From Asanoa ferruginea (GTDB taxonomy: Bacteria > Actinomycetota > Actinomycetes > Mycobacteriales > Micromonosporaceae): DNA of 64,000 nucleotides. The stretch spans positions 496,001-560,000 of the forward strand of contig NZ_QUMQ01000001.1 in the NCBI RefSeq assembly GCF_003387075.1, in the 5' to 3' direction. Each line of letters begins with the position of its first letter. Position 1 is the stretch's first letter. Shown piece after piece: positions 38,836 through 54,878 of this stretch. Made by a program: the position numbers and the translations under genes. Under the pieces are notes generated by a model, which saw nothing but the letters and a program-made list of their open reading frames with translations, ran no database searches and had not been told where the DNA came from.

Positions 38836-38911
38836 GCGCCGCTAGCTCAACTGGCAGAGCAGCGGACTCTTAATCCGCGGGTTCGGGGTTCGAGTCCCTG
38901 GCGGCGCACCA
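38836..38911 (+). tRNA. tRNA-Lys (anticodon CTT), with encoded CCA
   Basis: The acceptor arms GCGCCGC and GCGGCGC pair over seven bases. A D-arm with GCTC/GAGC, an anticodon stem GCGGA/TCCGC enclosing loop CTCTTAA (anticodon CTT), a T-arm with GGTTCGAGTCC, discriminator A and the CCA end are all present, giving 76 nt. It reads AAG codons, the preferred lysine codon in this genome. Confidence 0.97.
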
Positions 38912-40603: not shown

Positions 40604-40694
40604 GTTGACAGGCGAAGCATGGTGCCCGATCCCACTGCCTGTCAACCACATGGTGGGCAACTCTGCGGTGGGTGGCCGGTCGAGAAGTTGACAG
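40604..40694. promoter_or_regulatory. Operator array, GTTGACAG motif copies 1-3
   Basis: GTTGACAGG (40604-40612) and CCTGTCAAC (40638-40646) form a perfect inverted repeat; a third box GTTGACAG lies at 40687-40694. The gaps between 8-mers are 27 and 40 bp. Read leftward, the first pair aligns closely with the element at 50104-50195. Read rightward, 40639-40812 aligns with the XRE control region and gene start at 46754. The array thus sits between a leftward short frame and a rightward degraded XRE copy. Confidence 0.7.
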
Positions 40695-40715
40695 CATGAG
40701 CTGGGATGACCTTCG

Positions 40716-40812
40716 ATGGCTGATCGCGGCGAGTTTCCTCCCCGCTCACGATGCAGCAGCGACTGAGTGCTCCTTGTCGAGACCGTGCGGCCACCCGGCA
40801 AGACGCTGGTAG
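40716..40812 (+). pseudogene. Degraded N-terminal copy of the XRE regulator gene
   Basis: From the ATG at 40716 the DNA follows the start of the XRE gene at 46829. MADR is conserved, then, after frameshifts, LTMQQRL (intact gene: LTLQERL) and VETVRPPGK (intact gene: FETVRPPGK). Homology fades after about 40812, before the helix-turn-helix. Frameshifting indels and an in-frame stop make it non-functional. The upstream operator boxes are kept. Confidence 0.75.
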
Positions 40813-40897
40813 GAGCCGACGTCCTGACTCGTCGTATGACACGGACCGACGTCTTCCCCCGTGGGTGTCGGCCGACCACCCCCGCTACGGTCGTCGC

Positions 40898-41644
40898 ATG
40901 ATGGGCCAAAGTCGAGTGGCGCGGAACGCGGACGTCGATTGGGACGCGTGGCCGGTCGAGGAATACCTCCAGGAGAACTACGCCGAGCTCCATGCGGCCG
41001 ACCGCGCGGTGATCGCCCATCACTCCGCGGCTCTGGCAGGTCTCGCTCCTGGAAGCATCGACCGTGGCGTGGAGATCGGTGCCGGCCCCAACCTGTATCC
41101 GCTGATGCTGACCGGTGCGGCGTGCCGAGCGGTGGACGCCTTCGAGCCGAGCGCCGCGAATCTCGCGTACCTCCGGCGTCAGCTCCAGGATGGGCCTGAT
41201 GCCCACTGGGCCGAGTTCTTCGCGCATTGCCGCGAGGCGAACCCGCAGCTTCCGTCCTCAATGGAGACGGTGCTGGCGCGGATCCGGGTGGTCCGTGGTG
41301 GCGTGCTCGACGTCGGCGCGGGGAAATACGGGTTGGCATCGATGAATTTCGTCGCGGAAAGTGTCACCGAGAGCGCCGCGGAGTTCCGCCAGTTCTGCGA
41401 GGCGTTCATTTCGGCCGTCAGGCCCGGCGGTGTCCTGGTGGCCTCGTTCATGGAGAACATGGCCCGCTACCGGATCGCCGGTGGCCAGGAGTGGCCCGGA
41501 CATCCTGTCGACTCCGCGACCGTGGCCGACGTGTTCAGCCCGCACGTCATCGAGCTCGAGGTGTCGCGGATACCGGCGGATCCCGGTCTGCCGGACTGGG
41601 GTTACACCGGGATGGTGTTGCTTTCGGCGCGTCGAGCCGGCTAG
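40898..41644 (+). CDS. SAM-dependent methyltransferase (NNMT/PNMT/TEMT-like)
   Basis: 248 residues. The SAM motif I is RGVEIGAGPNLYPLML, followed by VDAFEPSAANLAYLRRQL (motif II with the acidic residue) and a late VRPGGVLVASFMENMARY strand. The N-terminal VDWDAWPVEEYLQENY resembles the NNMT/PNMT/TEMT group, which methylate small amines or thiols. Two adjacent ATGs (40898, 40901) can start it. The C-terminal stop shares CTAG with the convergent acetyltransferase. The substrate is unknown; being downstream of the operator array, it may belong to the same regulon. Confidence 0.82.
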   Translation: MMGQSRVARNADVDWDAWPVEEYLQENYAELHAADRAVIAHHSAALAGLAPGSIDRGVEIGAGPNLYPLMLTGAACRAVDAFEPSAANLAYLRRQLQDGPDAHWAEFFAHCREANPQLPSSMETVLARIRVVRGGVLDVGAGKYGLASMNFVAESVTESAAEFRQFCEAFISAVRPGGVLVASFMENMARYRIAGGQEWPGHPVDSATVADVFSPHVIELEVSRIPADPGLPDWGYTGMVLLSARRAG

Positions 41645-42399
41645 CTCCGGCCGAGGGTGTGGCGGACCCAGATGTTGGGTTCCACGTAGACGGCCCTGTC
41701 GTGGGTCAGGTCAGCCTGGACCGCGACGAGCGTGTCGGGGACCGCGACCGGGCCTGGGCGGTCGAACGGCAAGCCAGTCCACGAGCGCCACTCGGCGATG
41801 GTGCCAGTGACGGTCATAGACGAAGGCGCCACGGCGACGAGGCGGCCGCCCGCTCGGGCGTGGACGCGTAACCACGGGTCGACCGGCAGGCCGTCGTCGC
41901 GGGTACGCCACGCGTAGTCGCTCATCGCGACGTCACCGTGGGAGCTGGCTTCGGTCGGGCGGACCGGGGCGAGCAGCACAGGCAGTCCGCGGGCGGCGAC
42001 TCTCTGTCGTAGCGCTTCGAGCATGAGGGCGGACAGGCCCCGCCGGCGGGCGTGCGTCTGAACGGTGATCTCGATCGCGGCCGCGATGGTGGCGGGCCGA
42101 CGGTCGAAAAGGTCAGCCGCGGCTTGCAGGATCACCGCGTCGTGGCCGTCAGCGGGCGGCGTCCAATCGGGACCGGCGGGCCACGACAACGGAACGGCGT
42201 AGGCCTTGGCCAGCAGCCTGTCCGAGTTGGCCTGGTCGACCGCGACGAGACAGAACGCGGGGTGGGCCGGAGCTATGTGGTCGTAGAACAGGTGGGAAAG
42301 CCGCTGATGGGCCATGTATTCCGGCCAGCAGTCCGGGAAGTTGTCCAAGCTGGAGGCTAGGTCGGGTCGCTCGGCGATCGATACGATCTCCAGGCTCAT
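41641..42399 (-). CDS. GNAT-like N-acetyltransferase
   Basis: 252 residues. A GNAT-type core is suggested by IEITVQTHARRRGLSALMLEALRQRV (acetyl-CoA loop Q-x-x-R/G-x-G-like: RRRGLS) flanked by strands. The N- and C-terminal extensions are not typical. AGGAGG lies before the ATG at 42399. It may modify an amine of a small molecule. It is divergent from the GGDEF-EAL gene with a 141-bp gap between, and it lies next to the methyltransferase. Confidence 0.75.
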   Translation of the reverse strand: MSLEIVSIAERPDLASSLDNFPDCWPEYMAHQRLSHLFYDHIAPAHPAFCLVAVDQANSDRLLAKAYAVPLSWPAGPDWTPPADGHDAVILQAAADLFDRRPATIAAAIEITVQTHARRRGLSALMLEALRQRVAARGLPVLLAPVRPTEASSHGDVAMSDYAWRTRDDGLPVDPWLRVHARAGGRLVAVAPSSMTVTGTIAEWRSWTGLPFDRPGPVAVPDTLVAVQADLTHDRAVYVEPNIWVRHTLGRS

Positions 42400-42444
42400 G
42401 GGTCCTCCTCGATTCATGCGCCTCAGGCAAATCTGAAAAAACTT

Positions 42445-42456
42445 TCATGATCATGA
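42445..42456. promoter_or_regulatory. 12-bp palindrome in the divergent acetyltransferase/GGDEF-EAL promoter region
   Basis: TCATGATCATGA is a perfect palindrome inside a rare AT-rich patch (about 42425-42460) in the 141-bp gap between the two divergent starts. It contains no copy of the GTTGACAG motif. Confidence 0.4.
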
Positions 42457-42540
42457 TTGGTTGGCGGATAGCCATCGTGCAAGCTTGATGTTGATCTGCC
42501 GTGGACGCTGGCGGTAACGCGAGGCCGGCGAGGAGGTCTG

Positions 42541-45522
42541 GTGGGCGTGCGACGACGAGGAATCGCCCTCGCCTGCCTCATGGCGGTCTTCACGGCGTTG
42601 TTCTACGGCTTCCCGGACGCGCATCTCGTGACCTGGGCCGCCATCGGCCTGACCAGCGCTGCCGGCATCGCCGCTGGTGTCGTTGCCAACCGGCCACGCG
42701 CCAGAGCGCCCTGGCTGCTCTTGGCCGGCGCTGTCGTCGCGTTCACGCTCGGTGACACTGCCTACAACGTGCTCACCCGCGTCCTTGGCTACGTGGAGCC
42801 GTTCCCGTCGGTGGCGGATGCCATCTATCTCGGCGTTTTCGTTCCGCTGTTGATCGCGGCGCTCGTGACGTTGACGCGGACCGGTGCGCCCAGCCGTGAC
42901 CGCGCCAGCGTTCTGGATGCGTTGGTCTTCACCGCGAGTGCAGGCCTTCTCTTCTGGATTCTGTTGATTCAGCCGCAGGTGGGCGCTGATGCTCCGCTGC
43001 TGGACCGGGGGATCTCCGCGGCGTATCCGATCTGTGACGTTCTGCTGTTGGCCGTGACGGCCCGGTTGGTCGCGGCCGTCCGCTGGTCGCCGGCAGTCGT
43101 GCTACTCGGGGTTGGCGGATTCGGTCTCCTCATCGCTGACGTGCTGTATGGACTGGCTCAGACCCGCGGATCGTGGCAGATCGGTGGACCCGTCGATCTT
43201 GGATGGGTGGCCTTCTACGCGTGTGTGGCTCTGGCGGCGCTGCATCCGTCCATGCGGCAGCTGACCGCGCCCAGGCCGATCCCACCGGCTGCGCTTCGCC
43301 CGGGACGCCTTCTCGTTCTGGGCCTGTCGACGTTGATCGCGCCGGTGGCGATCGTTGTGCAGGTCCGCCGCGGTGCGACCGACGATGTCATCGTCGCGGC
43401 CGTCGTCGCGGCGGCGATGTTTCTGCTCGTCATCGCCCGTCTCTACGGCGCGATGAACGTGCACCGAGCCGCAGTCACCCGCGAACGCACTCTGCGGCGG
43501 GCCGCGACCGATCTCGTCACCGCGACCACCGCCGCGGACATCGAATCCACGATGCGCGCCGCCTTCGCCGGGTTGCTGCCACCCGGAACCGCCCACGTGG
43601 TCCTCCGCCAGAAGGCTCGCAGCGGCCTGGCCGTCGCGGGCTCAGACGTCAGGCTGATCGCTCGGGCCGACCTACCCGAGACCGGCCTTCCCGGGCTCGA
43701 CGACTTCAACACGATCGCGTGTGCCCCGCTGGTGGTCGCCGGCTCGACGAGCTCCCGCGATCACGGGAGTCTTCTGGTCGCGGCGGAAAGCCAACACCTC
43801 ATCGCACTCCACGACGCCTTGCCACTCCTCGCGGCCAACGCGGCCTCAGCGCTCGACCGCATCACGCTCAACGAAGAGGTCAACCGCAAGAGCACCGAGG
43901 CCTACTTCCGGACGCTGGTGCAGAACGCTTCAGACGTCATCCTGATTGTCGACGTCGACCTGAACGTCCGTTATGCGAGTCCATCCGCGTCAACCGTGTT
44001 CGGGCCCGCGGATCTGAGCGGGCGCAACCTCGACGAGCTCATCTCCGCGCGCCCCCAGCCGGGTTCCGTCGGAGTTCTTCCTGGGCAGTGGACGGTCGAG
44101 CGACCCGACGGCGAGTGCGTACACCTCGAGGCCTCTGTTCGAGATCTGCGCCACGAGCCGACGGTCGACGGCCTGGTCGTCACGTTGCGAGACGTGACCA
44201 GCCATCTGCGCATGCAGGCTGAGCTGACCCGGCTGGCCTACCACGACGAGCTCACGGGCCTGGCCAACCGGGTCCTGTTCCAGGCCCGCGTCGACGAGGC
44301 GCTCCAGCAGGACCGCACGGCGGAGGCCGTCGTGGCAATCCTGTTCGTCGACGTCGACGACTTCAAAGTCGTCAACGACACTCTGGGCCACTCCACGGGC
44401 GACGAGCTGTTGCGTGCCGTCAGCCAACGCCTCCGCGAGGCGGTCGGCACCGCCGCACTGCCCGCACGTCTCGGCGGCGACGAGTTCGCCGTCCTCGTCC
44501 AGACGACGCCCGTCACCGCTGTCGAGGAGCTGGCTGACCGCATCGTCGCGCTGCTGAACGAACCGTTCCTTCTCGAGCACGGCCTGGTGCACAGCAACGT
44601 CAGCATCGGTATCGCCACGACCGCCGACGCCACTGACGGCGCCGACCTTCTGCGGCAGTCCGACATGGCCCTTTACCTTGCGAAAGCCAACGGCAAGAAC
44701 CAGTGGAAACGGTACGAAGAGGCCACGCACGCCGCGCTGCTGCGTCGTATGCAGATCCGGGTCGACCTGGACGAGGCCTTGCGAACCGGTGCCTTTCTGC
44801 TCGAATACCAGCCGGTCATCGATCTGAAAACCGGCGTCACCGCAGGGTTCGAAGCACTGGTCCGGTGGCATCATCCGAGCCGCGGCACAATCGCGCCGGC
44901 CGAATTCATCGACGTCGCCGAGGAATCCGGCCTGATCGTGCCGCTCGGCGAGTGGATCCTCAACCGTGCCATCGCCGAGGCGGCCTCCTGGGCGAAGGCG
45001 TCGGCGACACCGCCATACGTCGGCGTCAACGTCTCCGCCCGCCAGCTCCGCCAACCAGGATTTGTCGACACCGTGCTGACCTCGCTGCGCCGGCACGGTC
45101 TCGCGCCCGACCGGCTCGTCATCGAGATCACCGAGAGCCTGCTCCTGACCGACCAGGGCAACGGGTGGTCCGACCTCAGAACATTGCGGGAGGCGGGCGT
45201 ACGCGTTGCCATCGACGACTTCGGAACCGGCTACTCCTCGTTGAGCTACCTACGCCAAGTGCCCGCCGACATCCTGAAGATCGAGCGGTCGTTCATCGGC
45301 AACACACCACACAGTGACAAGCAACGCGCTCTCGTCGACGGCATCGTCCGGCTGGCCACCACCCTGGACCTGGCCGTTGTGGCCGAGGGAATCGAACAAC
45401 CCGCGGAGCGCGACGTTCTCGCGAAGGTGGGTTGCCGCTACGGCCAGGGCTACCTCTTCTCCCCTCCCCTTGACTCCGACAGCGCCACACGTTGGCTACA
45501 GCGAGACTGGATCCCCGCATGA
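42541..45522 (+). CDS. Membrane-bound GGDEF-EAL protein (c-di-GMP metabolism)
   Basis: 993 residues. About nine membrane helices (residues 5-305), a GAF-like region (about 325-440), a PAS domain (about 450-560, YFRTLVQNASDVILIVDVD), GGDEF (about 563-720, with intact LGGDEFAVL at 644 onwards) and EAL (about 740-985, with FEALVRWHH and DDFGTGYSSL). Both catalytic signatures look complete, so it could make and break cyclic di-GMP. The membrane part is the sensor of an unknown signal. The last bases overlap the start of the oxoamine synthase gene (ATGA). A GTG start at 42541 is used. Confidence 0.93.
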   Translation: MGVRRRGIALACLMAVFTALFYGFPDAHLVTWAAIGLTSAAGIAAGVVANRPRARAPWLLLAGAVVAFTLGDTAYNVLTRVLGYVEPFPSVADAIYLGVFVPLLIAALVTLTRTGAPSRDRASVLDALVFTASAGLLFWILLIQPQVGADAPLLDRGISAAYPICDVLLLAVTARLVAAVRWSPAVVLLGVGGFGLLIADVLYGLAQTRGSWQIGGPVDLGWVAFYACVALAALHPSMRQLTAPRPIPPAALRPGRLLVLGLSTLIAPVAIVVQVRRGATDDVIVAAVVAAAMFLLVIARLYGAMNVHRAAVTRERTLRRAATDLVTATTAADIESTMRAAFAGLLPPGTAHVVLRQKARSGLAVAGSDVRLIARADLPETGLPGLDDFNTIACAPLVVAGSTSSRDHGSLLVAAESQHLIALHDALPLLAANAASALDRITLNEEVNRKSTEAYFRTLVQNASDVILIVDVDLNVRYASPSASTVFGPADLSGRNLDELISARPQPGSVGVLPGQWTVERPDGECVHLEASVRDLRHEPTVDGLVVTLRDVTSHLRMQAELTRLAYHDELTGLANRVLFQARVDEALQQDRTAEAVVAILFVDVDDFKVVNDTLGHSTGDELLRAVSQRLREAVGTAALPARLGGDEFAVLVQTTPVTAVEELADRIVALLNEPFLLEHGLVHSNVSIGIATTADATDGADLLRQSDMALYLAKANGKNQWKRYEEATHAALLRRMQIRVDLDEALRTGAFLLEYQPVIDLKTGVTAGFEALVRWHHPSRGTIAPAEFIDVAEESGLIVPLGEWILNRAIAEAASWAKASATPPYVGVNVSARQLRQPGFVDTVLTSLRRHGLAPDRLVIEITESLLLTDQGNGWSDLRTLREAGVRVAIDDFGTGYSSLSYLRQVPADILKIERSFIGNTPHSDKQRALVDGIVRLATTLDLAVVAEGIEQPAERDVLAKVGCRYGQGYLFSPPLDSDSATRWLQRDWIPA

Positions 45523-46775
45523 CCAGAAACCTCGAGCCCACCAGGGACAACCAGCTCGCCACGCTCCTGGAGACCTCGCCGATGGTCGACGCCGTCATCG
45601 ACGAGGTCGACGGCCGACGGATCAGGATCGGCGATCACTGGTTGACCGACTTCGCGTCCTGCAACTACCTCGGCTTCGACCTCGAACCCGAGATCATGGC
45701 GGCGATCGACGACCAGGTGCGCAGGTGGGGCACGCATCCAGGATGGTCCCGGTTGCTCGGCAGCCCGCGACTCTACGTCGACATCGAGGACCAGCTCACC
45801 GAGCTCCTGGGCGCACCGGACACGCTCGTCCTGCCCACCATCACCCACATCCACCTGTCGGTGATCCCCGCACTCGTCCAGGAAGGCACCGTCTACGTCG
45901 AGGGCCGGGCCCACAAAACGATCTACGATGGTGCCCGCTTCGCCCGCGGCCTCGGCGCCGACCTCGTCCGCTTCCGCGACGACGACCTGGACACGCTCGC
46001 CGACCACCTCGCCGCGAACACCCGTTCCGGTCCGAAGCTGATCTGCATCGACGGCGTCAACAGCATGACCGGCAACCTGCCCAACCTCGCGACCTACGTC
46101 GCGATCGCCCGCCGACACGAAGCGAACCTCTACGTCGACGACGCACACGGCTTCGGTGTCATCGGTCAACGCGGGCCGGGTGAGACCTCCCCATACGGCG
46201 AGCGAGGCAACGCGATCCTGGCTCATCAGGGCATCTCGTACGACGACGTCATCCTCGTCGGAGGTTTCTCCAAGTCCTACTCGTCCTTGCTGGCGTTCAT
46301 CGCACTGCCAACGGAGCTCAAGCAGCGCCTCAAGATCGATGCGGCGCCCTACCTCTATTCCGGGCCATCGCCAACGGCCTCGCTTGCGACCGTCCTAGCA
46401 GGATTCGACCTCAACAAGAGGCGGGGCGACGAGATCCGCCGCACCCTTCATCGGCTGACCGCGAAGGTGTTGGACCACCTGCGATCCCTCGGCGTCACGA
46501 CACCGAACCGCAGCGGCACCCCGATCATCGAAATACCCCTGGGTCACGACCAAGAGATCGGTGCGGTCTCGCGAAAGCTCTGGGACGCAGGCATCTACGC
46601 AACGGTCGCGGCCTACCCGCTCGTGCCACGCGCCGAGTCGGGAATACGCATTCAGACCACAGCGGCGCACACCGAGGCCGACATTCACCATCTCATTCAA
46701 ACGCTGACGTCGCTCGCGCGCGAAGGACAAGCCATGCGGACTTCGCCCGAGGTCTGTCAACCAGATGTGGGCTAG
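45519..46775 (+). CDS. Alpha-oxoamine synthase-like PLP enzyme (KBL/BioF/CqsA group)
   Basis: 418 residues of fold-type I. It has the family pattern FASCNYLGFDLEP, GWSRLLGSPRLYVDIEDQL, YVDDAHGFGVIG and the PLP lysine K252 in GGFSKSYSSL. Members condense an amino acid with an acyl-CoA to give an alpha-aminoketone; in Vibrio (CqsA) and Legionella (LqsA) the product is a cell-density signal, while BioF and KBL serve biotin and threonine metabolism. No biotin gene is near. Its start overlaps the GGDEF-EAL stop. Its last codons contain one of the operator boxes of the next gene. Confidence 0.85.
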   Translation: MTRNLEPTRDNQLATLLETSPMVDAVIDEVDGRRIRIGDHWLTDFASCNYLGFDLEPEIMAAIDDQVRRWGTHPGWSRLLGSPRLYVDIEDQLTELLGAPDTLVLPTITHIHLSVIPALVQEGTVYVEGRAHKTIYDGARFARGLGADLVRFRDDDLDTLADHLAANTRSGPKLICIDGVNSMTGNLPNLATYVAIARRHEANLYVDDAHGFGVIGQRGPGETSPYGERGNAILAHQGISYDDVILVGGFSKSYSSLLAFIALPTELKQRLKIDAAPYLYSGPSPTASLATVLAGFDLNKRRGDEIRRTLHRLTAKVLDHLRSLGVTTPNRSGTPIIEIPLGHDQEIGAVSRKLWDAGIYATVAAYPLVPRAESGIRIQTTAAHTEADIHHLIQTLTSLAREGQAMRTSPEVCQPDVG

Positions 46776-46808
46776 GCTCTTCGGGGAGCGGGTAGGAAAG
46801 TTGACAGA
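46753..46808 (+). promoter_or_regulatory. Promoter/operator of the XRE gene (GTTGACAG motif pair)
   Basis: TCTGTCAAC (46753-46761) and GTTGACAGA (46800-46808) form a perfect 9-bp inverted repeat with a 38-bp gap between them. The gap holds a possible -10 (TAGGCT, 46773-46778). The first box lies in the final codons of the upstream gene, and the second lies 21 bp before the XRE start codon, so binding of the XRE protein here would be autoregulatory. Confidence 0.65.
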
Positions 46809-46828
46809 CGGAAGCTGGAGGGGTGTCG

Positions 46829-47329
46829 ATGGCTGACCGGGAGGGGCTTCCCGCCCTGCTCACCTTGCAGGAGCGACTCAAGTTCCTGTTCGAGACGGTG
46901 CGCCCGCCGGGCAAGGCCCGCTACTCGTTCAGGCAGGTCGCCGAAGCGATCAAGACCGAGCACGGCGTCGAGATCTCAGGGCAATACATCCAGCAGATCG
47001 AGAGCGGCGAACGCCGCAACCCCGGGGTCGTCCAGGTCAGGGCACTCGCCAGCTTTTTCGGCGTCCCGCCTGAATACCTGCTGGGTGGAGGCGAGACCGA
47101 CAAGGTCACCGGCGAGCTGAACAGGCTTCGCGAAGCCATCGAGGTCCGCGAGCGTCTCGACGAGATGATGGACGACGCCATGCGCGACCCCGACCTCCAA
47201 GGCATCGTGCTCAAGGCCCGCGGCGTGCCTCCGCGATACCTCCAGTTGGTGGCGGGCATGCTTGACGAGGTGCGACGGATCGAGGGACTCGACGAGGTCA
47301 CGGACACCGACCGCGGCCGACCGCACTAA
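46829..47329 (+). CDS. XRE-family transcriptional regulator
   Basis: 166 residues. An HTH_3 domain covers residues 33-87 (YSFRQVAEAIKTEHGVEIS, GQYIQQIESGERRNP, SFFGVPPEYLL), and a helical C-terminal part (about 92-150) probably dimerises or binds the ImmA partner. GGAGGGG lies five bases before the ATG at 46829. The next gene is an ImmA-type protease, the usual pair in which the protease cleaves or unlocks the XRE protein. A broken copy of this gene's start lies at 40716. Confidence 0.9.
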   Translation: MADREGLPALLTLQERLKFLFETVRPPGKARYSFRQVAEAIKTEHGVEISGQYIQQIESGERRNPGVVQVRALASFFGVPPEYLLGGGETDKVTGELNRLREAIEVRERLDEMMDDAMRDPDLQGIVLKARGVPPRYLQLVAGMLDEVRRIEGLDEVTDTDRGRPH

Positions 47330-47420
47330 GATCGATCGATTTCCCAGTGTGATCGCGCTGCCACGCACACGACCTTGCGGTTCGCTGCCGGTCACGTCAT
47401 AGTGACGATCGGTTGGGAGA

Positions 47421-47966
47421 GTGGGTCTTGGGGTGGATGGTCATCACAGACGACGGCACGAACGGCTTCTGCGTGACCTCGAGGTCACCATCCCTACGCC
47501 GTTCGACCCGTGGGAGTTCTGCCGGCACGTAGCCGAACGTCGGGCTCGACCCATTCATATCCTGCGCATGGACACCACAGAGGCCGCGTCATGTGGCTTG
47601 TGGTTGGCGACCCAGAAGGCCGATTACGTCGTCGTGGACGAAGGAGCACCCGCCGTCCTTGCGGGGCACATCATCCTGCACGAACTCGCCCACATGCTTC
47701 TCGGGCACACCGGGCAAATCAAGCTGGACGCCGCGGCTCTCGGCTTCGAGGTCCTCGACCCGACGATGGTCCAGCGCGTCCTCGGGCGCACGAGTCGCTA
47801 CCTGACCGAGGAGGAGCGAGACGCGGAGGGCTTCGCCAGCGTCATCAAGTCGTTCGCGGCGCGGTGGTCGCCCGTGCCCCGGCCGCGCGACGGGGATGCC
47901 GAGCATGCCGCGGTGATCGATCGCTTCAGCTCGGCGCTCGCCGGCGATCGGCGATGGAGGCGATGA
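47421..47966 (+). CDS. ImmA/IrrE-type metallopeptidase
   Basis: 181 residues from a GTG at 47421; a GTG at 47433 is an alternative. The domain has LWLATQKADYVVVDEGAP, the zinc motif HELAHMLLGH (H87, E88, H91), and a following helix with EEERDAEGFASVI, whose Glu can be the third ligand. Proteins of this kind next to XRE regulators often inactivate them on a signal. Its stop overlaps the start of the membrane GPP34 protein (ATGA), so the two are translationally coupled. Confidence 0.88.
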   Translation: MGLGVDGHHRRRHERLLRDLEVTIPTPFDPWEFCRHVAERRARPIHILRMDTTEAASCGLWLATQKADYVVVDEGAPAVLAGHIILHELAHMLLGHTGQIKLDAAALGFEVLDPTMVQRVLGRTSRYLTEEERDAEGFASVIKSFAARWSPVPRPRDGDAEHAAVIDRFSSALAGDRRWRR

Positions 47967-49822
47967 GCGGTATCGAGGGCCTCCTGGTCGCCGCCTTCAT
48001 CTTCGTCGTTCTGGCACACAAGAGCAGCCACCTCTACCGCGACCCCGGAAACCCCGCACTACGGGCCATGTGTCTCACGCTTGTTTGCCTGATGACCGCG
48101 ATCGTGATCGGCTTCCGGCCCATCTATCAGGCGATCGATCAGGCCGCAGGGGTCCCGAACCTCACCCGATACCTGGCCCATGCCCTCGCCCTCGTTGCTG
48201 CCGCAGCCATCCAGACGATGTTCCTGTTCCTGGCCGACCCGGCCACCGCTCCCGCGCGGACTCGCAGGCGGTGGTTCCTGCTCGCCGCGACGCTCGGCAT
48301 CATGGGCAGCGCGTTCCTGTGGGGCCATTTCAATATCGAGGATCCCGAAGCGTTCACGGCGCGATACGCACACCGACCCGAATTCCTGGTCTACCTGGCC
48401 GCGTTCCTGGCGTTCTGCGCCGTTGGCACGGCCGATGTGCTGCGGATGTCGATGCGCTACGCGCATCTCGTGCCCGCACGCCACCTCCGGCTCGGCATCC
48501 GGCTGTTGGCCGTCGGAGTCGTCGGTGGAGTTCTCTTCGGCCTCCACAAGCTCGTGGTCGTGGTTGTCAGCGTCGCCGGCCTCGACGTTCCTTGGTCAGA
48601 ACCTTCTGCCTCCCGCGCCCTTGCCCTGTTCAGCATCGCCGTCACGACAGCCGGCCTCGCTGCTCCGTCTCTCGGGCCCTACGTGGCCGACGCCATCGGG
48701 TGGACCCGCCACTACCGCCTGTATCGAGATCTCGAGCCATTGTGGAAGGCGATATACCGGGTAAGTCAGTCCGCGGTCCTCAGCCCACCCCGGCGCCGAC
48801 CGTCCGTCGGCGACATGCGGTTGCAGCTCGACCGGCGGGTTATCGAGATCCACGACGGCTTGCGCGAGCTCAGCCCCTACGTGGAGCGGGATGTCGCCGA
48901 GGAAGCGACAAAGCTGGCGCTGCTCCGCGGGGCCCAGGTCGACCACGCGCGAGCTATCGGACAGGCAGCCAGCCTGGCTGCGGCGATCGGTCGCATGACC
49001 GCCGTCTCCGCTGACGCGTCCACGATCGTGAGCCGAAACGGCGGCGATGGCGGCGTCCTGGTGGTTGGCTCGGATGCCGGCGCTCAGTCGCTTGCCCTGG
49101 TGTCCCGGGTCTATGCCGGCGAGGGCATGTCGGCCGGGCCAAGACTTGCCCGCTACCGCGCAGGTCGTCGGCGCGAGGTGTCGAGGGCGCCGATGGACGA
49201 CGTCCCTCTCGCGGGAGTCTTCTACCTATTGGCCCACGACGCGGAAACCGGACGAGCCCGGCTGCGGCCCCGAGCGACAGCCGTGACGCTGGCGGCAGGA
49301 CTCCTGATGGAGGTTCTCTTCCTCAACCTTGCCCGCATCGAGGGTAAGGAGCTGATCGCGGCTGATGGTCCCGCCCCGCGGGATCCGCTGATCAGGGAGG
49401 TTGCGCAGGCCATCGCGCAAGAAACACACACAGTGCGCACCTGGCTCGAGTATCTGTCCGAGACGGCGCTGGAAGACGTGATCCAACGCTTGCACGGCGA
49501 CGGAATCATCGCGCCGATGGTCGCCCGCAGTGTCTTCCGCACGATGACCGTCTGGCGCCCTACCGAACCCGGCATTGTCGCGTCGTCTTGGGGGCGGCTG
49601 TCGCTGCTTTTGCGAACAGGGGCCCAATTAGCTCCACTTGAAGCCGCCCTCGCCGGGCTCATCCACGTTGCTGAGCTTGACAGCGTCCTGCTCGCGGGAG
49701 CCGAGCGGCCCGTTCGCGAGCACTTGGCTGGTGTCCTCCAGCGGACAGCGTCACCGCTGCAACTGCTGCTGGCGGAGACGCAGACCATTCTCGGCGCCGA
49801 CGTCTTGGCCCGGCGCATCTAG
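47963..49822 (+). CDS. MAB_1171c-like membrane protein fused to a GPP34 (GOLPH3-like) domain
   Basis: 619 residues from ATG 47963. Residues 5-245 hold seven hydrophobic helices in the style of MAB_1171c-type putative transporters (LVAAFIFVVLAHKSSHLYRDPG at the start), followed by a cytoplasmic helical part (GWTRHYRLYRDLEPLWKAI, 246-345). From about 412 the sequence changes to the GPP34 pattern: DVPLAGVFYLLAHDAETGRARLRPR, AAGLLMEVLFLNLARIEGKELIA, a WLEYLSETALEDVIQRLHGDGI helix pair and FRTMTVWRPTEP. GPP34 proteins bind phosphoinositides in eukaryotes; their bacterial role is unknown. The frame is unbroken, so the fusion is real in this sequence. Confidence 0.8.
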   Translation: MSGIEGLLVAAFIFVVLAHKSSHLYRDPGNPALRAMCLTLVCLMTAIVIGFRPIYQAIDQAAGVPNLTRYLAHALALVAAAAIQTMFLFLADPATAPARTRRRWFLLAATLGIMGSAFLWGHFNIEDPEAFTARYAHRPEFLVYLAAFLAFCAVGTADVLRMSMRYAHLVPARHLRLGIRLLAVGVVGGVLFGLHKLVVVVVSVAGLDVPWSEPSASRALALFSIAVTTAGLAAPSLGPYVADAIGWTRHYRLYRDLEPLWKAIYRVSQSAVLSPPRRRPSVGDMRLQLDRRVIEIHDGLRELSPYVERDVAEEATKLALLRGAQVDHARAIGQAASLAAAIGRMTAVSADASTIVSRNGGDGGVLVVGSDAGAQSLALVSRVYAGEGMSAGPRLARYRAGRRREVSRAPMDDVPLAGVFYLLAHDAETGRARLRPRATAVTLAAGLLMEVLFLNLARIEGKELIAADGPAPRDPLIREVAQAIAQETHTVRTWLEYLSETALEDVIQRLHGDGIIAPMVARSVFRTMTVWRPTEPGIVASSWGRLSLLLRTGAQLAPLEAALAGLIHVAELDSVLLAGAERPVREHLAGVLQRTASPLQLLLAETQTILGADVLARRI

Positions 49823-49834
49823 CGGCTCGGGCAG

Positions 49835-49972
49835 CTGTCAACCGCCGCCAGGATCCCTGAACAGTCTACCTGGGACATCCGGTTGACATCCATGGCGAGT
49901 CAGACCGTATTCTTGCGGTGTCAACGCGCCGACCCTTGGCGTGGACGCACACTGGTTCACCCTAGTTGACAG
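49835..49972. promoter_or_regulatory. Operator array with four GTTGACAG-type boxes
   Basis: CTGTCAAC (49835), GTTGACAT (49882), GTGTCAAC (49918) and GTTGACAG (49965) alternate in orientation. The gaps between successive 8-mers are 39, 28 and 39 bp, the same two classes of gap as at the other sites. The array starts 13 bp after the stop of the GPP34 gene, in a 570-bp stretch without a supported gene (49823-50396). Confidence 0.65.
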
Positions 49973-50102
49973 CGTCTCCGCAGGTCGGTGGCACGGTGCA
50001 GGCGCGGCAGCAAACGGGGACGGGCGGCTGGTGGGCGCACAACGCCTTGCAGTGCCGTCAGTGCTGTCGCGGCCGCACCGTGCGGGAAAGCGCGGAATTG
50101 AT

Positions 50103-50148
50103 AGTTGACAGCCGATGGGCGCGGGACTCTATGCTCCTGCTGTCAACT
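50103..50148 (+). promoter_or_regulatory. Promoter overlapped by a GTTGACAG/CTGTCAAC operator pair
   Basis: AGTTGACAGC (50103-50112) and GCTGTCAACT (50139-50148) are a perfect 10-bp inverted repeat. TTGACA (50105-50110) and TATGCT (50130-50135) with a 19-bp spacer look like a -35/-10 pair lying inside it. The element aligns over more than 90 bp with the reverse strand at 40646-40557 and, more weakly, with 54922-54868. Confidence 0.65.
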
Positions 50149-50155
50149 CATAGAC

Positions 50156-50362
50156 ATGGATGCCATCGGCGTCCGGCCTGACGTAGCTGACAGCTCCGTC
50201 CCGCGAACGTCGCTGATGGGCGCCATGCCCGGTCAGCGGGGACCCCTCTCCCCCCGAGGGGTCCCCGCCCCGGGTACGTGGGCAGCACAGCGCGGGCAGC
50301 ACAGCGCGGACAGCACGGCGCGGGCGCTCATCGGTGCCGAGGTCTGCGGGCGCCGCATGTAG
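50156..50362 (+). CDS. Possible short reading frame or small-RNA region
   Basis: ATG at 50156 opens a 68-residue frame (MDAIGVRPDVADSSVPRTSL at the start). The first 13 codons align with the frame at 40595, with (V/I)ADS kept. There is no ribosome site, and a strong hairpin (50237-50267) sits inside the frame. The product could be a short peptide of about 30 residues with the terminator in its tail, or an RNA of about 125 nt. Confidence 0.3.
   Translation: MDAIGVRPDVADSSVPRTSLMGAMPGQRGPLSPRGVPAPGTWAAQRGQHSADSTARALIGAEVCGRRM
50237..50267 (+). terminator. Strong hairpin about 100 bases downstream of the 50.1-kb promoter
   Basis: CGGGGACCCCTC (50237-50248) and GAGGGGTCCCCG (50256-50267) pair perfectly over 12 bp with a 7-base loop. 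It lies 130 bp before the permease start, so it could end a short transcript or act as an attenuator for the permease gene. Confidence 0.7.
50282..50323. repeat. Three tandem 14-bp repeats
   Basis: GCAGCACAGCGCGG occurs at 50282 and 50296, and ACAGCACGGCGCGG at 50310. They lie between the hairpin and the permease gene. No function is known. Confidence 0.65.
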
Positions 50363-50396
50363 GTTGTGGCCTGCTCCTCACACATCGGAGAGACAC

Positions 50397-51896
50397 TTGC
50401 CGCCTGCGCACCCCCCGTCGAGCTTTGTCGCCGACCGTCTGGCACGTCGGCGGCTAGGTGTCGCCTCGGTTGTGTTTTTCGTCGTCGCGGCGGCGGCGCC
50501 GTTGACGGTCATCGCGGGAGCGGCTGTCACCGCGGTCGCGGTCACGGAGATCACGGCTGTGCCGGTCGGGTATCTCGTGGTGGCGATAGGGCTCGCGGTG
50601 TTCGCCGTGGGCTACGTGGCCATGAGCCGGCACGTCGTCAACGCGGGTGCCTTCTACTCCTACGTCTCTCATGGCCTCGGCCGGACGTTCGGGGTCAGCG
50701 CCGCGGCGGTGGCCCTCGTCGCGTACAACGCCATGCAGGTGGGCCTGTACGGGGCGTTCGGATATGTCGGCTCTCTGGTGCTCGGCGCCTTCGGGGTGAC
50801 GGTGGCGTGGTGGCCCTGCGCGTTGGTGGGTTGGGCGATCGTCGCGATTCTCGGGCTGCTGGATGTCAGCCTCAACGGCCGGGTGCTCGCGACCATGCTG
50901 GCGGCCGAGGTGCTTATCGTGCTGATCTACGACGCGGCCATGATCACCCATCCGGCCGGCGGAGCGTTGCGGTTCGACACGCTACAACCAGACCAGCTGC
51001 TAACTCCCGACATCGCCGCCGTAATGGTCGTTTCCGTCGCAGGATTCGTCGGGTTCGAGGCGACGGTCGTTTTCTCCGAGGAGGCGCGGGATCCACGGCG
51101 GACCGTCGCGCGGGCGACCTACATCGCGATCGCCGTCATCGGCCTGCTCTACGGGCTCTCAGCGTGGGCGCTCTCGGTGGCCACCGGTCCCGAGCACCTC
51201 GTCGCTCGCGCCAAGAGCGAAGGGCCCGACCTGATGTTCAACCTGGTGCTTCCGTACGTCGGACAGTCCCTGGTCGACCTCGGCAAACTCCTGTTCCTGA
51301 CCAGCCTCTTCGCCGCCTTGCTGGTCTTCCACCACACCGTGGCCCGCTACAGCTACGCGTTGGGTAGAGAGCGAGTGCTGCCTGCGGCGTTCGGCCGCGT
51401 CGTCCGACGCACGGGCGCGCCGAAAGTCGGGTCGCTCGCGCAGAGCATCCTGGCTCTCGGCGTCATCGGGACCTACGCCGTGGCCGGCTGGCACCCGATG
51501 GAGAACATGTTCGCGCTCCTCACGACGACGGGCGGTCTTGGCGTGCTCATCCTGATGGCTGCCACATCCGTTTCCGTCATCGGATTCTTCAGCCGCGACC
51601 CGCGCGGCGAGTCGATCTGGCACCGCCTGATCGCACCCGTCGCCGCCAGCCTCTTCCTGGGCGGCCTGACGATCGACACGATCATCCACTTCGGGTCGCT
51701 GTTAGCGCCGGCGAGTTCACAGTGGGTGTGGGGATTCCCCATCGCGTACGGCATCGCCATGCTCGGTGGACTGGTCTGGGCGTTCATCGTGCGACGCTGG
51801 CATGCAGACATCTATGCCCGAATAGGGCTTGGCGTTGAAGAGCCACCGGGCTCCCCCAAGCCGCCGGAGCCGTCGCGTCACCACGCTGTCATCTAG
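50397..51896 (+). CDS. APC-superfamily amino acid permease
   Basis: 499 residues with about 12 membrane helices. The start is TTG at 50397, with GGAGAG upstream, giving PPAHPPSSFVADRL. APC motifs include VVFFVVAAAAPLTVIAGA in helix 1, GAFYSYVSHGLGRTFG in helix 3 and VAGFVGFEATVVFSEEARDPRRTV (helix 6 with the conserved FEA and acidic EE). It would import an amino acid or amine by symport. The next gene starts 15 bp later, so they are likely co-transcribed. Confidence 0.88.
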   Translation: MPPAHPPSSFVADRLARRRLGVASVVFFVVAAAAPLTVIAGAAVTAVAVTEITAVPVGYLVVAIGLAVFAVGYVAMSRHVVNAGAFYSYVSHGLGRTFGVSAAAVALVAYNAMQVGLYGAFGYVGSLVLGAFGVTVAWWPCALVGWAIVAILGLLDVSLNGRVLATMLAAEVLIVLIYDAAMITHPAGGALRFDTLQPDQLLTPDIAAVMVVSVAGFVGFEATVVFSEEARDPRRTVARATYIAIAVIGLLYGLSAWALSVATGPEHLVARAKSEGPDLMFNLVLPYVGQSLVDLGKLLFLTSLFAALLVFHHTVARYSYALGRERVLPAAFGRVVRRTGAPKVGSLAQSILALGVIGTYAVAGWHPMENMFALLTTTGGLGVLILMAATSVSVIGFFSRDPRGESIWHRLIAPVAASLFLGGLTIDTIIHFGSLLAPASSQWVWGFPIAYGIAMLGGLVWAFIVRRWHADIYARIGLGVEEPPGSPKPPEPSRHHAVI

Positions 51897-51911
51897 CAGG
51901 AAGGACCTTCG

Positions 51912-52541
51912 TTGTCCGAGGCTGCGACAGACTCGGCCGCGATCCGGCTCGCCTCTCGAGCGGACGCGTCAGCGGTCAGCGCGACCCTTGTCGAATCGTT
52001 CCTGGTGAGCGCGGTCGGGGACTGGTTGATCCCAGATATCGCGGCCCGTCGCGCGGTCTATGAGCGGTGCTTCGCCACGATCGTCGATCACGCACTCCGA
52101 CACGGCGTCATACACACCACCGCAGACCGCGCCGCCGTCGCTGTGTGGTACCCGATGATGGGTCCGGCCGTCGACGATCCGGACCACGACGCCCGCCTCG
52201 CTGAAGCCGCCGGCGACTATTTTGATCGGTTTCTGCTGAAGCTGAAGGTCACCGCCGAGCGCCACCCAACCGAACCACACCACCACCTGGCCTTCCTCGG
52301 CGTCCAACCGAGCCGCCAAGGAACCGGGTTGGGCACCGCGCTGCTGGACGCCTACCACCGGGTGCTCGACGCGTCCGGGACGCCGGCCTTTCTCGAGGCA
52401 ACCAATGAACGGAACAGCCGGCTGTACGTGCGGCACGGCTACCGCGCCGCGGAACCGGTCTACCTGCCACACGGAGGGCCCCCGATGTGGCCGATGTGGC
52501 GAGACCACGCGGGTGCATGTAACGAAGGTGCGGCTGGCTGA
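51912..52541 (+). CDS. GNAT-family N-acetyltransferase
   Basis: 209 residues. TTG start at 51912 with AGGAAGGA upstream. The acetyl-CoA motif reads VQPSRQGTGLGTALLDAYHRVLD (about residues 135-157), followed by LEATNERNSRLYVRHGY, which is typical of GNAT proteins with broad small-molecule substrates. It follows the permease closely and may modify the imported compound. Confidence 0.88.
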   Translation: MSEAATDSAAIRLASRADASAVSATLVESFLVSAVGDWLIPDIAARRAVYERCFATIVDHALRHGVIHTTADRAAVAVWYPMMGPAVDDPDHDARLAEAAGDYFDRFLLKLKVTAERHPTEPHHHLAFLGVQPSRQGTGLGTALLDAYHRVLDASGTPAFLEATNERNSRLYVRHGYRAAEPVYLPHGGPPMWPMWRDHAGACNEGAAG

Positions 52542-52563
52542 CAAGTATCGGCAGAGCATCCTA

Positions 52564-53141
52564 TGGAGGGGCCTGTGCCGGACCATCGAGGAACTGACGC
52601 TGATCGTCAGCGGTTAACTGATCTGTTCCGTCAGCATGGCGATGACATCTACGCGTACGCCGCCTTGCGACTCGAAACGGAGGACGCCGAGGACGCCGTG
52701 TCCGAGGTCTTCACCGTCGCCTGGCAGAAGCTGTCGACGGTTCGCCGTGGCGAGGAACGGCCGTGGCTGTTCGGGGTGGCACGACGCGTGGTGTTGGCGC
52801 GCCGTCGCCGTAACGCCGGCGCGGGTATCTTCCGACAACGTCTGCTGGCCGCCGGTGTTGCCGACGCTGATGATCACGGCGAATCGACCGTTGAGCGGCG
52901 TCGTGTCATGGCGGCGTTGGAACGACTGTCAGAAAAGGAACGCGAGGCGCTTCTGCTGCGCTATTGGCTCGACCTCAGCGTTTCTGAAGCGGCTACGGCA
53001 GCTGGGTGCTCGACAACAGCTTTCGGCGTCCGCCTGCATCGCGCCAGACGGCGGTTGAGGGACGCACTCGACCGGCACGATGTAGGTCGCGCGCCACGCT
53101 TGCTTCGGGCCATGCCCCACCTGCTGAAGGAGCCGAAATGA
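52564..53141 (+). CDS. ECF-type RNA polymerase sigma factor
   Basis: 192 residues. Region 2 (LTDLFRQHGDDIYAYAALRL, EDAEDAVSEVFTVAWQKL) and region 4 (RLSEKEREALLLRYWLDLSV, AAGCSTTAFGVRLHRARRRL) are both present. The ATG at 52564 is used; a GTG at 52576 with GGAGGGG before it is an alternative start. The next gene overlaps by four bases (ATGA) and encodes a membrane protein of the anti-sigma layout, so the pair is an autoregulated signalling unit. Confidence 0.92.
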
Positions 53142-53701
53142 ACGACCGCGAGCTCAAGGAGATGATCACACGGGCAATGCCGAGCAGGGAGACGCGCTTT
53201 GCGGCCAGCCCGCAAGGCGAAACGATCCTTCAGCGCATTGTCGCCAACGACGAGAGCGCCCCCGACCATTCAAAACGCCGTCGAACGACGCGCAGGAGGC
53301 GGATCGTCGGGTTGACACTCCTGGCAACCTTCGGGGCAGTGGGCGCAGGGGCCGTGGCCATAGCCGACTACGGGGCGCCAACCGCTCCACCGTCGACGCT
53401 ACCGAAGTCTGCCGAGGCGTTCATGTGCGCCTCCGCAGGGCTGGAGCATATGGCCGAAGTGCCACGAGGCCAGGGCGAGAGCCACGTGGCCGCGTGCCGG
53501 CGGATGTGGCCCTCGATTTTTGACGAGGACGCCCCGGACCACCTTTTCGCCTGTGTCAAGGGAGTGCCGACAACGGCCAGCGCCGACCCGCAGTCAGGCG
53601 TCGCGGCATTGGTTTACGTTGTCGAGGGTGGCGCGTTCGTGACCGCCAGTCAAACGTGCGGGTCGGTCGGGATGCTCGTAGTTCCCGATTCGGCTGGCTG
53701 A
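53138..53701 (+). CDS. Membrane protein coupled to the ECF sigma factor (putative anti-sigma)
   Basis: 187 residues. The cytoplasmic N-terminus (residues 1-55, DRELKEMITRAMPSRE...) is followed by an RRRTTRRRR stretch, one membrane helix (about 57-76) and an outer domain of about 110 residues with four cysteines (C96, C118, C142 and C176). It lacks a recognisable zinc anti-sigma motif, but gene order and coupling to the sigma factor support an anti-sigma role. The terminator follows ten bases after the stop. Confidence 0.75.
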   Translation: MNDRELKEMITRAMPSRETRFAASPQGETILQRIVANDESAPDHSKRRRTTRRRRIVGLTLLATFGAVGAGAVAIADYGAPTAPPSTLPKSAEAFMCASAGLEHMAEVPRGQGESHVAACRRMWPSIFDEDAPDHLFACVKGVPTTASADPQSGVAALVYVVEGGAFVTASQTCGSVGMLVVPDSAG

Positions 53702-53710
53702 CACAGCCGG

Positions 53711-53741
53711 GTGGAAGGCCGGGCGCTGCCCGGCCTTCCAC
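53711..53741. terminator. Bidirectional terminator between convergent genes
   Basis: GTGGAAGGCCGGGC and GCCCGGCCTTCCAC form a perfect 14-bp stem with a 3-base loop, midway between the stops of the convergent genes at 53701 and 53760. Confidence 0.85.
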
Positions 53742-53759
53742 AGCGGCTAGCGTGGAGCG

Positions 53760-54404
53760 CTACGGCCAGTTCGGGAGCCATGGATTCGATGCGGGCCCGC
53801 AGACGTGGACCCCATCGATCTTGTCATTCGCGTTGGCGCTGCCGTCCTGGCCTGGGTCCAACGCGAGATTTGACAGGTCATTCGGTGCGGAAAGCGAGAT
53901 GATGCGGTTCCACTTGGTGCCGCTCCAGTTGTAGAAGTAGGACCATGTGCCGCTGGTCTGCTCGTTGCTGATCGAGGAGATCTTGTCGGCCCAGTTGCCG
54001 CCGCCTGGATACGCGACGTTATACAACTTCCAGTCTTTGTTGCAGTCGTAGAAGTCGAGGCGGTTGCCGCCGTACTGACGGTTCGACCAAACACACAGAT
54101 ACAAGAAGTTGCACCCCGCCGCGAGCGTTGTCACTTCCCCTTGAGCTGCGGGAAGTTTCATCCTCAATCCGGGTGCGATCTGAATCGTCGAAGCATCGAG
54201 TTGCTTCGAGCCGGGCATCCGCTTCAAAACGTCGTCGATACCGGCTTGACGCTGCGCCTTCGTGGGCGGAACCGTAGCGTTCTCCCAGTCGTAAACGACT
54301 GCCGGCTTCGGCTTCGGGGCAGCCTGGGCAACAGCCGACGGCGCCAGGACGAGCGCTGTCGCGGCTAGCGCCGACGCAAGAAAACGCCGCCGCCTTGTCA
54401 TCAT
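53760..54404 (-). CDS. Secreted peptidase inhibitor family I36-like protein
   Basis: 214 residues from ATG 54404. The signal peptide ends ...VAQAA. The C-terminal domain (about residues 103-214) has the beta/gamma-crystallin-like I36 pattern: CNFLYLCVWSNRQYGG, RLDFYDCNKDWKLYNV, NWADKISSISNEQTSGTWSYFYNW. Streptomyces SMPI is the classic member and blocks metalloproteases. The first part is an unknown linker domain. Codon use is rather AT-rich. A snapalysin-like protease is encoded at 3279 but far away. The AAAGGA ribosome site lies six bases upstream of the start. Confidence 0.87.
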   Translation of the reverse strand: MMTRRRRFLASALAATALVLAPSAVAQAAPKPKPAVVYDWENATVPPTKAQRQAGIDDVLKRMPGSKQLDASTIQIAPGLRMKLPAAQGEVTTLAAGCNFLYLCVWSNRQYGGNRLDFYDCNKDWKLYNVAYPGGGNWADKISSISNEQTSGTWSYFYNWSGTKWNRIISLSAPNDLSNLALDPGQDGSANANDKIDGVHVCGPASNPWLPNWP

Positions 54405-54587
54405 CGTCATTCCTTTTCCCATCATTCAAGTGGAAACGGAACGGAAGTTGGGCCGGCCCCACACCCGTTGTACGAGAAGCATCGGGTCGGCCTGCTGTGT
54501 CCGGCAACGCATCTGCGGGGACCGTGCGGTAATCCGCAAATGACGATGATGGGCGCACGGCAGTGCGGTGCTGGACAACCATTTGAG

Positions 54588-54806: not shown

Positions 54807-54851
54807 TTACCCTCCTGTTGCCGAACGCTCACGCTCGTCAATCACGCGCAT
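54807..54851 (-). other. 14-codon leader frame abutting the LuxR-type gene
   Basis: ATG at 54851 to TAA at 54809-54807 reads MRVIDERERSATGG. The stop touches the next start (TAAGTG), and the downstream ribosome site lies inside the leader frame, which would suit translational coupling or a leader switch. Another mini-frame of ten codons (54870-54838) overlaps it and begins at the fixed offset after the operator. Confidence 0.35.
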
Positions 54852-54878
54852 TAGACCTCGTTACATTCACGGACGTGA

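Follow-up and report, generated by a model that had tools for sequence, protein, structure and literature searches.

Autoinducer synthases and their cognate sensors are usually encoded by adjacent genes, and a 2012 review names CqsA/CqsS and LqsA/LqsS, the alpha-hydroxyketone quorum-sensing systems of Vibrio and Legionella, as such pairs and describes oxoamine-based signalling for proteobacteria (PMC3376566). We analyzed a locus of similar arrangement in the actinobacterium Asanoa ferruginea, in which a predicted pyridoxal phosphate (PLP)-dependent alpha-oxoamine synthase is encoded directly after a membrane protein with GGDEF and EAL domains. The locus lies in a 64,000-nucleotide stretch (positions 496,001 to 560,000 of contig NZ_QUMQ01000001.1, hereafter the window), which is part of a single-contig genome of 9.07 Mb. 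A preliminary description of this DNA had joined the two genes with the three that follow into one signalling module. The comparisons reported here indicate that the five genes are two modules, namely the synthase and GGDEF-EAL pair and, beside it, an unrelated unit of an XRE regulator, an ImmA/IrrE-like metalloprotease and a MAB_1171c-GPP34 fusion protein.

The window pair shares with the Cqs and Lqs systems a PLP-dependent oxoamine synthase beside a membrane sensor, a likely acyl thioester substrate and, in part of its family (7 of 24 loci from a draw across the phylum), a histidine-kinase output. However, its synthase scores far below the CqsA/LqsA model cut-off, its commonest output is a GGDEF-EAL protein, it is actinobacterial here, and synthase and sensor are joined in one chain in Streptomyces loci. 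The pair would thus work like a Cqs system from outside the CqsA/LqsA family as judged by model score; its likeness to CqsS is one of gene arrangement.

On the output side, cyclic di-GMP (c-di-GMP) controls sporulation and specialised metabolism in Streptomyces, according to two articles (PMC6205966, PMC7026642). The first describes S. venezuelae CdgF as a 10TM-PAS-PAC-GGDEF-EAL protein with all key residues in both domains, and states that the signals for the sensory parts of the S. venezuelae GGDEF/EAL proteins are unknown (PMC6205966). This domain order, compared by description only, is that of the GGDEF-EAL half of the window family; the words aminotransferase, PLP and pyridoxal do not occur in the main text of that article. 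A chimera of CqsS and adenylate cyclase (PMC4821796) illustrates that an enzyme of nucleotide-messenger metabolism can be put under the control of a membrane domain from quorum sensing, although the chimera is engineered and yields cyclic AMP rather than c-di-GMP. No account of an oxoamine synthase tied to a GGDEF-EAL protein was found in the open-licence literature among the matches listed, as judged by titles and abstract openings.

Linkage and fusion of the synthase with a membrane GGDEF-EAL protein

Five open reading frames (ORFs) on the forward strand were confirmed at 42541-45522, 45519-46775, 46823-47329, 47421-47966 and 47963-49822, in the order previously described. The GGDEF-EAL and synthase genes overlap by ATGA at 45519-45522, as do the ImmA and GPP34 fusion genes at 47963-47966, and gaps of 47 bp and 91 bp separate synthase from XRE and XRE from ImmA, respectively. 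The GGDEF-EAL gene (42541-45522), whose start codon is uncertain (GTG at 42541 or further 3'), encodes a protein of 993 residues with a multi-transmembrane (TM) N-terminus (residues ~1-330), a weak PAS match, a GGDEF domain at 566-721 (Pfam, 146 bits) and an EAL domain at 742-976 (244 bits). Its GGDEF, EAL and DDFG motifs are present, and in the 76 loci of relatives with a match, GGDEF is kept in 72 of 74 aligned sequences, EAL in 73 of 75 and the EAL-domain lysine in all 76. By these motifs the protein is predicted to be a catalytically competent c-di-GMP enzyme.

We searched for relatives of the synthase in several genome sets. A wide scan covered 84,980 species genomes, from which the best 80 of 340 loci were read with up to 10 kb of flank on each side; these 80 are weighted to good matches and partly overlap the genomes of a same-family search of 150 genomes, which was queried with the synthase and with gene 5 (MAB_1171c-GPP34). 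The synthase query gave 47 non-self matches in that family, whose loci were read for 29, with L164 and L166 added later; one comparison within the same family took in 13 of these 29. A draw across the phylum comprised 396 genomes of 237 genera with synthase matches counted at E<=1e-60, and 24 of its loci were read, the window's own locus and one split over two contigs being left out. In addition, 199 genomes were drawn evenly from a single genus, presumably Streptomyces, since its member G331 clusters with named Streptomyces on trees.

A GGDEF-EAL gene lies near the synthase in 75 of the 80 wide-scan loci, upstream on the same strand in 67, downstream on the same strand in five and on the other strand within ~5 kb in three. 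The remaining five comprise four without a GGDEF-EAL gene and one truncated by a contig end. In the same family, the GGDEF-EAL gene was directly upstream in 28 of the 29 non-self loci. With 22 EAL genes (23 match rows, of which two belong to a single gene) spread over the 9.07 Mb of A. ferruginea, the probability that one falls within 4 kb of the synthase by chance is ~2%. The association of the two genes, already proposed in the preliminary description, was thus borne out.

The association extends to fusion in Streptomyces. All 22 Streptomyces loci among the 80 present GGDEF-EAL and synthase as one stop-free open frame, with 23-71 residues between the matched parts. In the single-genus draw, the synthase was found in 30 of 199 genomes, and 21 of these 30 copies lie in an open frame of more than 1400 aa, long enough for both halves; the frame of G331, the only one of the 21 to be read, contains both.

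Synthase paralogues of an Actinoplanes group (L125, L126, L132 and L141) occur without GGDEF-EAL. The paralogue of L132 is followed by a BTAD-type regulator gene (Pfam). Genes of the same clusters as the neighbours in L125/L132 are found in L126 and L141, in the latter ~1.5 kb further on.

A constant membrane domain with changing outputs

The N-terminal ~330 residues of the GGDEF-EAL protein, multi-TM by hydropathy, show 54% mean column identity over 41 members. The window copy had no Pfam match, and among the 41 members Pfam matched HlyIII three times (best E ~0.001) and two further families once each. A profile of the domain had no match in the Protein Data Bank (PDB) up to E = 1.

A protein with an N-terminal domain of the window type is encoded near the synthase in 23 of the 24 phylum-draw loci. 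In seven of these 24 (L186, L188, L189, L194, L195, L196 and L197) the domain heads a histidine kinase, as confirmed by Pfam in five and by likeness to L188 in L189 and L194. The order in L186 is kinase, LuxR-type response regulator, MFS protein and synthase, and that in L188 and L189 is synthase, kinase, MFS protein and GGDEF-EAL protein, with the same order in reverse complement in L194. No GGDEF-EAL homologue was found in the stretches of 9-17 kb available for L186, L195, L196 and L197. These four loci and the kinase-ended companions indicate that c-di-GMP turnover is not the constant element of the family and that the membrane domain is. Synthase and putative membrane sensor would therefore be the constant parts and the output the variable one.

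The 24 synthase-bearing genomes have one to seven sensor-domain match rows each, some of them pieces of one gene. Eleven have a single match, which lies within ~5 kb of the synthase in 10; that of G279 is on another contig. A tree of the domain was built from the window's copy, those of 21 of the 80 loci, 25 from the phylum draw and 22 unlinked to a synthase, matches under 180-200 residues being left out.

The synthase as a separate clade of alpha-oxoamine synthases

The synthase (45519-46775, 418 aa; Aminotran_1_2, 97 bits) had been likened in the preliminary description to the CqsA/LqsA type, membership of which the scores do not bear out. On the CqsA/LqsA model (NF005526) it reaches 96.5 bits against a cut-off of 428, and eight of nine other oxoamine synthases score higher (154-207 bits), the ninth having no match at E<=1e-20. 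In PDB profile scores, CqsA gave 65 bits as opposed to 173 for the best BioF/KBL chain. The relation to CqsA was judged by the NCBIfam model and these profile scores, CqsA not being on the tree described below. The highest NCBIfam score, 207.5 bits on BioF (TIGR00858), is also far below its cut-off of 426.45, as are the 118-184 bits on BioF/KBL-related, SPT, KBL, ALAS and PRK07505 models (123-176 bits on KBL and SPT, with cut-offs of 460-493 and 500-670, respectively, and 118 bits on ALAS, with a cut-off of 339).

In a tree of 28 family rows (the window's and 27 members) and 18 references, all family rows fell on one side of a branch with support of 98/95, outside the BioF, KBL, SPT and ALAS references. 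With three distant members added, the family branch had support of 95/73, and with the longest reference removed, the Shimodaira-Hasegawa approximate likelihood-ratio test (SH-aLRT) gave 100. We interpret the enzyme as a member of an undescribed clade of alpha-oxoamine synthases. It shares with BioF, KBL, SPT and ALAS the fold type as judged by sequence, the PLP lysine, the active-site His and Asp and the carboxylate Arg, but forms its own clade on a long stem. The nearest tree row is PRK07505 in an E. coli plasmid copy (L152, hypothetical), which has an MFS gene upstream and a Cys replacement in common with the family; its branch is very long (3.6-4.3) and its placement may be an artefact.

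Residues K252, H132, D207, H210 and R377 of the synthase align with those of E. coli BioF and KBL, where we take them to be the PLP lysine, the stacking His, the Asp-x-x-His pair and the carboxylate Arg. All 80 relatives compared keep H132, D207, H210 and R377, and 79 of them keep K252. The clade is marked by a Cys (78 of 80; Ser in two) where the S-N-x-Y-L-G motif has Asn and by a W-G-T-H-P-x-W-S motif, and the loop at residues ~218-229 is longer by 11 residues than in BioF, KBL, SPT and ALAS. One of the comparisons behind these residue and loop features took in 47 of the 80 loci.

The synthase is the sole BioF-model match of its genome at E<=1e-10, and in the phylum draw it occurs in 26 of 396 genomes (its own included) and 23 of 237 genera. 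Two distant family members from one genus (~40% identical; L196, 5712-9209; L199, 7944-11207) are single chains that join an AMP-binding ligase and a phosphopantetheine carrier to the synthase, and an AMP-binding ligase gene directly follows the companion-less paralogue in L125. These arrangements make an acyl thioester the likely substrate.

Accessory genes of the synthase module

An S-adenosylmethionine-dependent methyltransferase is encoded at 40865-41644 on the forward strand (Pfam NNMT_PNMT_TEMT, a weak 29.4 bits with a cut-off of 25). Its ORF opens at 40751, and the conserved portion starts near 40900. By clustering, it is 52-65% identical to a methyltransferase in 20 of the 80 synthase loci; tblastn found one in 23 of the 80. 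On this evidence the gene belongs with the synthase and marks the true left end of the module. Between it and the GGDEF-EAL gene, a reverse-strand gene at 41641-42417 encodes an uncharacterised protein without a Pfam match, which is 51-53% identical to the product of the same-position gene in Phytohabitans maris (L086) and Micromonospora sp. NBRC 107566 (L106). An MFS gene is present in 33 of the 80 loci and a SnoaL-like gene in 20. The preliminary description had overlooked the methyltransferase, which lies outside the limits it set, as well as the MFS protein, a candidate exporter in the relatives, and the likely sensor, namely the N-terminal part of the GGDEF-EAL protein.

The adjacent XRE-ImmA-GPP34 unit

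XRE regulators and ImmA/IrrE proteases form regulator-protease pairs, and genes 3 to 5 of the window resemble such pairs together with the MAB_1171c family. The XRE regulator (46823-47329, HTH_3, 27.8 bits with a cut-off of 23) stands next to a metalloprotease (47421-47966) with a HELAH motif, so that an HTH regulator beside an HExxH protease, the arrangement of XRE-ImmA switches, is present. The protease call is weaker, as its Peptidase_M78 score of 14.3 bits is below the cut-off of 22; we keep it because the HELAH motif is present and the XRE-ImmA-MAB_1171c set recurs in relatives. The third protein (47963-49822) is a membrane protein of the MAB_1171c family (227 bits; DUF6545, 85 bits) with a C-terminal GPP34 domain (82 bits). 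All three genes are on the forward strand. Compared with described XRE-ImmA/IrrE pairs, the unit adds this C-terminal GPP34 domain and a local set of TGTCAAC operators.

Gene 5 had matches in 54 genomes of the same-family search, and the non-self loci read numbered 29. In three of them the match is confined to GPP34, and 26 are of the MAB_1171c type; of the latter, 22 have homologues of both XRE and ImmA, two of ImmA only and two of XRE only. The synthase was absent from all 29. Conversely, genes 3 to 5 were not found within ~1.5 kb of the synthase in the 29 non-self same-family synthase loci, in the flanks of any of the 80 wide-scan loci, or at any of the 24 phylum-draw loci. In the same-genus genome G072, XRE, ImmA, the GPP34 fusion, a permease and the next gene follow in the order of the window without the synthase, and two further same-genus genomes that are near-identical here (G018 and G101) show this same order at lower identity, likewise without it. 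The synthase was not found in the five other members of the genus examined. Two genomes of the genus have, after the MAB_1171c-GPP34 fusion, a second, stand-alone GPP34 gene (L160, 12728-13330; L161, 12596-13198).

The symmetric operator reported ahead of XRE, with its first box inside the end of the synthase gene, is present as TGTCAAC at 46755-46761 and GTTGACA at 46800-46806, exact paired boxes in a TGTCAAC-N38-GTTGACA site (46755-46806). G072 DNA upstream of XRE aligns with the operator as well as with the final ~30 bp of the synthase ORF. A degenerate forward-strand copy of the XRE operator and XRE 5' end also lies upstream of the methyltransferase, where 40639-40802 matches 46754-46915 with 72% identity over 168 columns (blastn, E 6e-16). 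This remnant contains gaps and was revealed by blastn; ungapped direct repeats of at least 25 nt in 37.5-54 kb amounted to one weak family. In view of the alignment with G072 and the decayed copy, the presence of a box within the synthase gene is best explained by the junction between the modules. We infer from the XRE remnant only that the synthase module may have been inserted here: in a search for an empty site, the DNA left of XRE in G072, G018 and G101 gave no match apart from that remnant.

The pattern TGTCAAC-N(38-40)-GTTGACA occurs at four sites in the 9.07-Mb genome (spacers of 28-44 searched), all in the window, and a reversed-pattern control for TGTCAAC-N(28-44)-GTTGACA gave no site. 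Its counterpart GTTGACA-N(29-30)-TGTCAAC likewise occurs four times genome-wide (spacers of 26-34 searched), again all in the window. All eight paired sites fall within 14 kb (40604-54922), at 40.6, 46.8, 49.8-50.1 and 54.9 kb. One pair of each kind lies in a half-site array at 40604-40693 (TGTCAAC at 40604 on the reverse, 40640 on the forward and 40687 on the reverse strand), ~200 bp ahead of the point where conservation of the methyltransferase begins. A further array of paired half-sites (49836-49888, 49919-49971 and 50104-50147) precedes an amino acid permease gene (50334-51896, forward strand), whose synteny with the XRE unit is kept in three genomes of the genus (two of which are near-identical here). 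An exact convergent pair precedes XRE in six of the 29 non-self gene-5 loci (L035-L038, L041 and L042; four of these loci are covered at greater length by L160-L163). G072 (L159) has one of the two boxes exact ahead of XRE and an exact convergent pair ahead of the permease. The exact operator is not general, since 22 of the 29 loci have no exact pair in the short stretch read. Within the window, the paired sites suggest that the XRE unit has a small regulon of its own. Downstream of the paired site at 54879-54922, an ORF at 55059 resembles, by eye, a nickel/cobalt transporter gene.

Proposed mechanism and alternatives

The constancy of synthase and membrane sensor under a changing output is the pattern of a signal synthase and its receptor, as in CqsA/CqsS and LqsA/LqsS. 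We therefore propose, with slightly better than even credence, that the two proteins are a synthase-receptor pair whose product is sensed by the neighbouring membrane protein with c-di-GMP as output; the locus is most economically explained by a small-molecule signal that is perceived through c-di-GMP. The synthase would most likely form an acyl aminoketone by condensing an amino acid with an acyl thioester. In A. ferruginea this compound may be methylated by the methyltransferase encoded nearby, and in many relatives the MFS protein may export it. Most likely the product is sensed by the multi-TM N-terminal domain of the GGDEF-EAL protein, which would then set the local c-di-GMP level; in some actinobacteria the same domain would drive a histidine kinase instead. 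The acyl aminoketone chemistry, the departure of the product from the cell and its binding by the sensor are the three steps that we infer. More tentatively, and at somewhat less than even credence, the pair may represent an unrecognised actinobacterial family of cell-cell signalling systems, in which a synthase is encoded together with its own receptor, possibly in one polypeptide in Streptomyces, the usual output being c-di-GMP and the alternative a histidine kinase. If true, oxoamine-based signalling would extend to actinobacteria with a different output, and c-di-GMP, the messenger governing Streptomyces development, would be linked to a diffusible signal. A synthase coupled to one group of GGDEF/EAL proteins also offers a candidate ligand, and a sensor domain without a Pfam match (window copy) or PDB match would gain a description.

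Several observations weigh against the synthase-receptor reading. The companion is absent from the stretch read in L125, L126, L132, L141 and L165 (the second copy of G009), and L200 has no sensor companion in 10.5 kb, the only match of that genome being on another contig. Nine of the 30 synthase copies of the presumed Streptomyces draw have short, broken or partial frames. The sensor domain also occurs elsewhere: nine genomes searched contain 2-22 copies each, in four of the nine no synthase was found at E<=1e-60, and unlinked copies nest among linked ones on the tree. With outputs read for the linked copies, the kinases need at least three changes on that tree, a count that could shift with the outputs of the 22 unlinked copies. 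On the CqsA/LqsA model the window enzyme scores below eight of nine other oxoamine synthases. One member (L122) has Gln in place of the PLP lysine, 27 of the 80 loci have neither methyltransferase nor MFS gene, so that these accessories are patchy, and the tree tool warns of long reference branches, which leaves relations outside the synthase clade unsure.

The main rival reverses the arrow: c-di-GMP turnover or the sensor would gate the synthase, which would make a lipid or specialised metabolite under local c-di-GMP control and whose product would not be sensed. The direct fusion in Streptomyces would suit such allosteric gating, the nearby methyltransferase and MFS genes look biosynthetic, and companion-less Actinoplanes-group paralogues adjoin a ligase (L125) or a BTAD-type regulator (L132). 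However, the sensor domain sits on a histidine kinase in seven of the 24 deep loci, and four of these showed no GGDEF-EAL homologue in the 9-17 kb available, so we consider this reading fairly unlikely. A housekeeping role would make the synthase a divergent enzyme of biotin, threonine or sphingolipid metabolism with incidental neighbours. In its favour, the synthase is the only BioF-model match in its genome at E<=1e-10, and BioF is the closest family by hidden Markov model (207 bits). Its scores and tree position relative to BioF, SPT, KBL and ALAS, its sparse distribution across the phylum and within the genus, and the conservation of its neighbours make that very improbable.

Two further alternatives involve the XRE unit. 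In the five-gene module of the preliminary description, an ImmA-controlled XRE repressor reads the synthase product and the MAB_1171c-GPP34 protein acts as sensor or exporter. The common strand, the short gaps, the operator box in the synthase ORF and the half-sites upstream of the methyltransferase agree with this wiring, but the five genes were never together in the 80, 24 or 29 loci, the XRE unit is complete without the synthase in three genomes of the same genus, and the end of the synthase ORF aligns with XRE upstream DNA of G072. We regard the five-gene wiring, and with it the roles given to its last three proteins, as hardly credible. The preliminary description would have called the neighbourhood a chance one if the synthase fell inside the BioF or KBL clade and the genes did not recur; they do not recur in these samples, whereas the synthase lies outside those references, so that this check gives a divided outcome. 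Compatible with the synthase-receptor pair, albeit improbable, is a cross-talk confined to this species, in which the methyltransferase has come under the control of the XRE-ImmA switch by way of the former XRE promoter copied at 40.6-40.8 kb. The confinement of all eight paired sites to the window, with one of each kind before the methyltransferase, speaks for it, but that array sits beside a decayed XRE copy and may be a relic.

Other features of the region

PADLOC gave two weak XRE matches and nothing else. A tRNA-Lys gene lies to the left of the region (38836-38911), and G072 has a 73-bp match (89%) to it on the opposite strand just right of the XRE-permease block (L159, 14840-14912). These matches suggest a plastic, tRNA-adjacent region. 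Further left, at 34961-37643, two tandem L,D-transpeptidases (YkuD) with Big_10 domains are encoded, which are probably duplicates.

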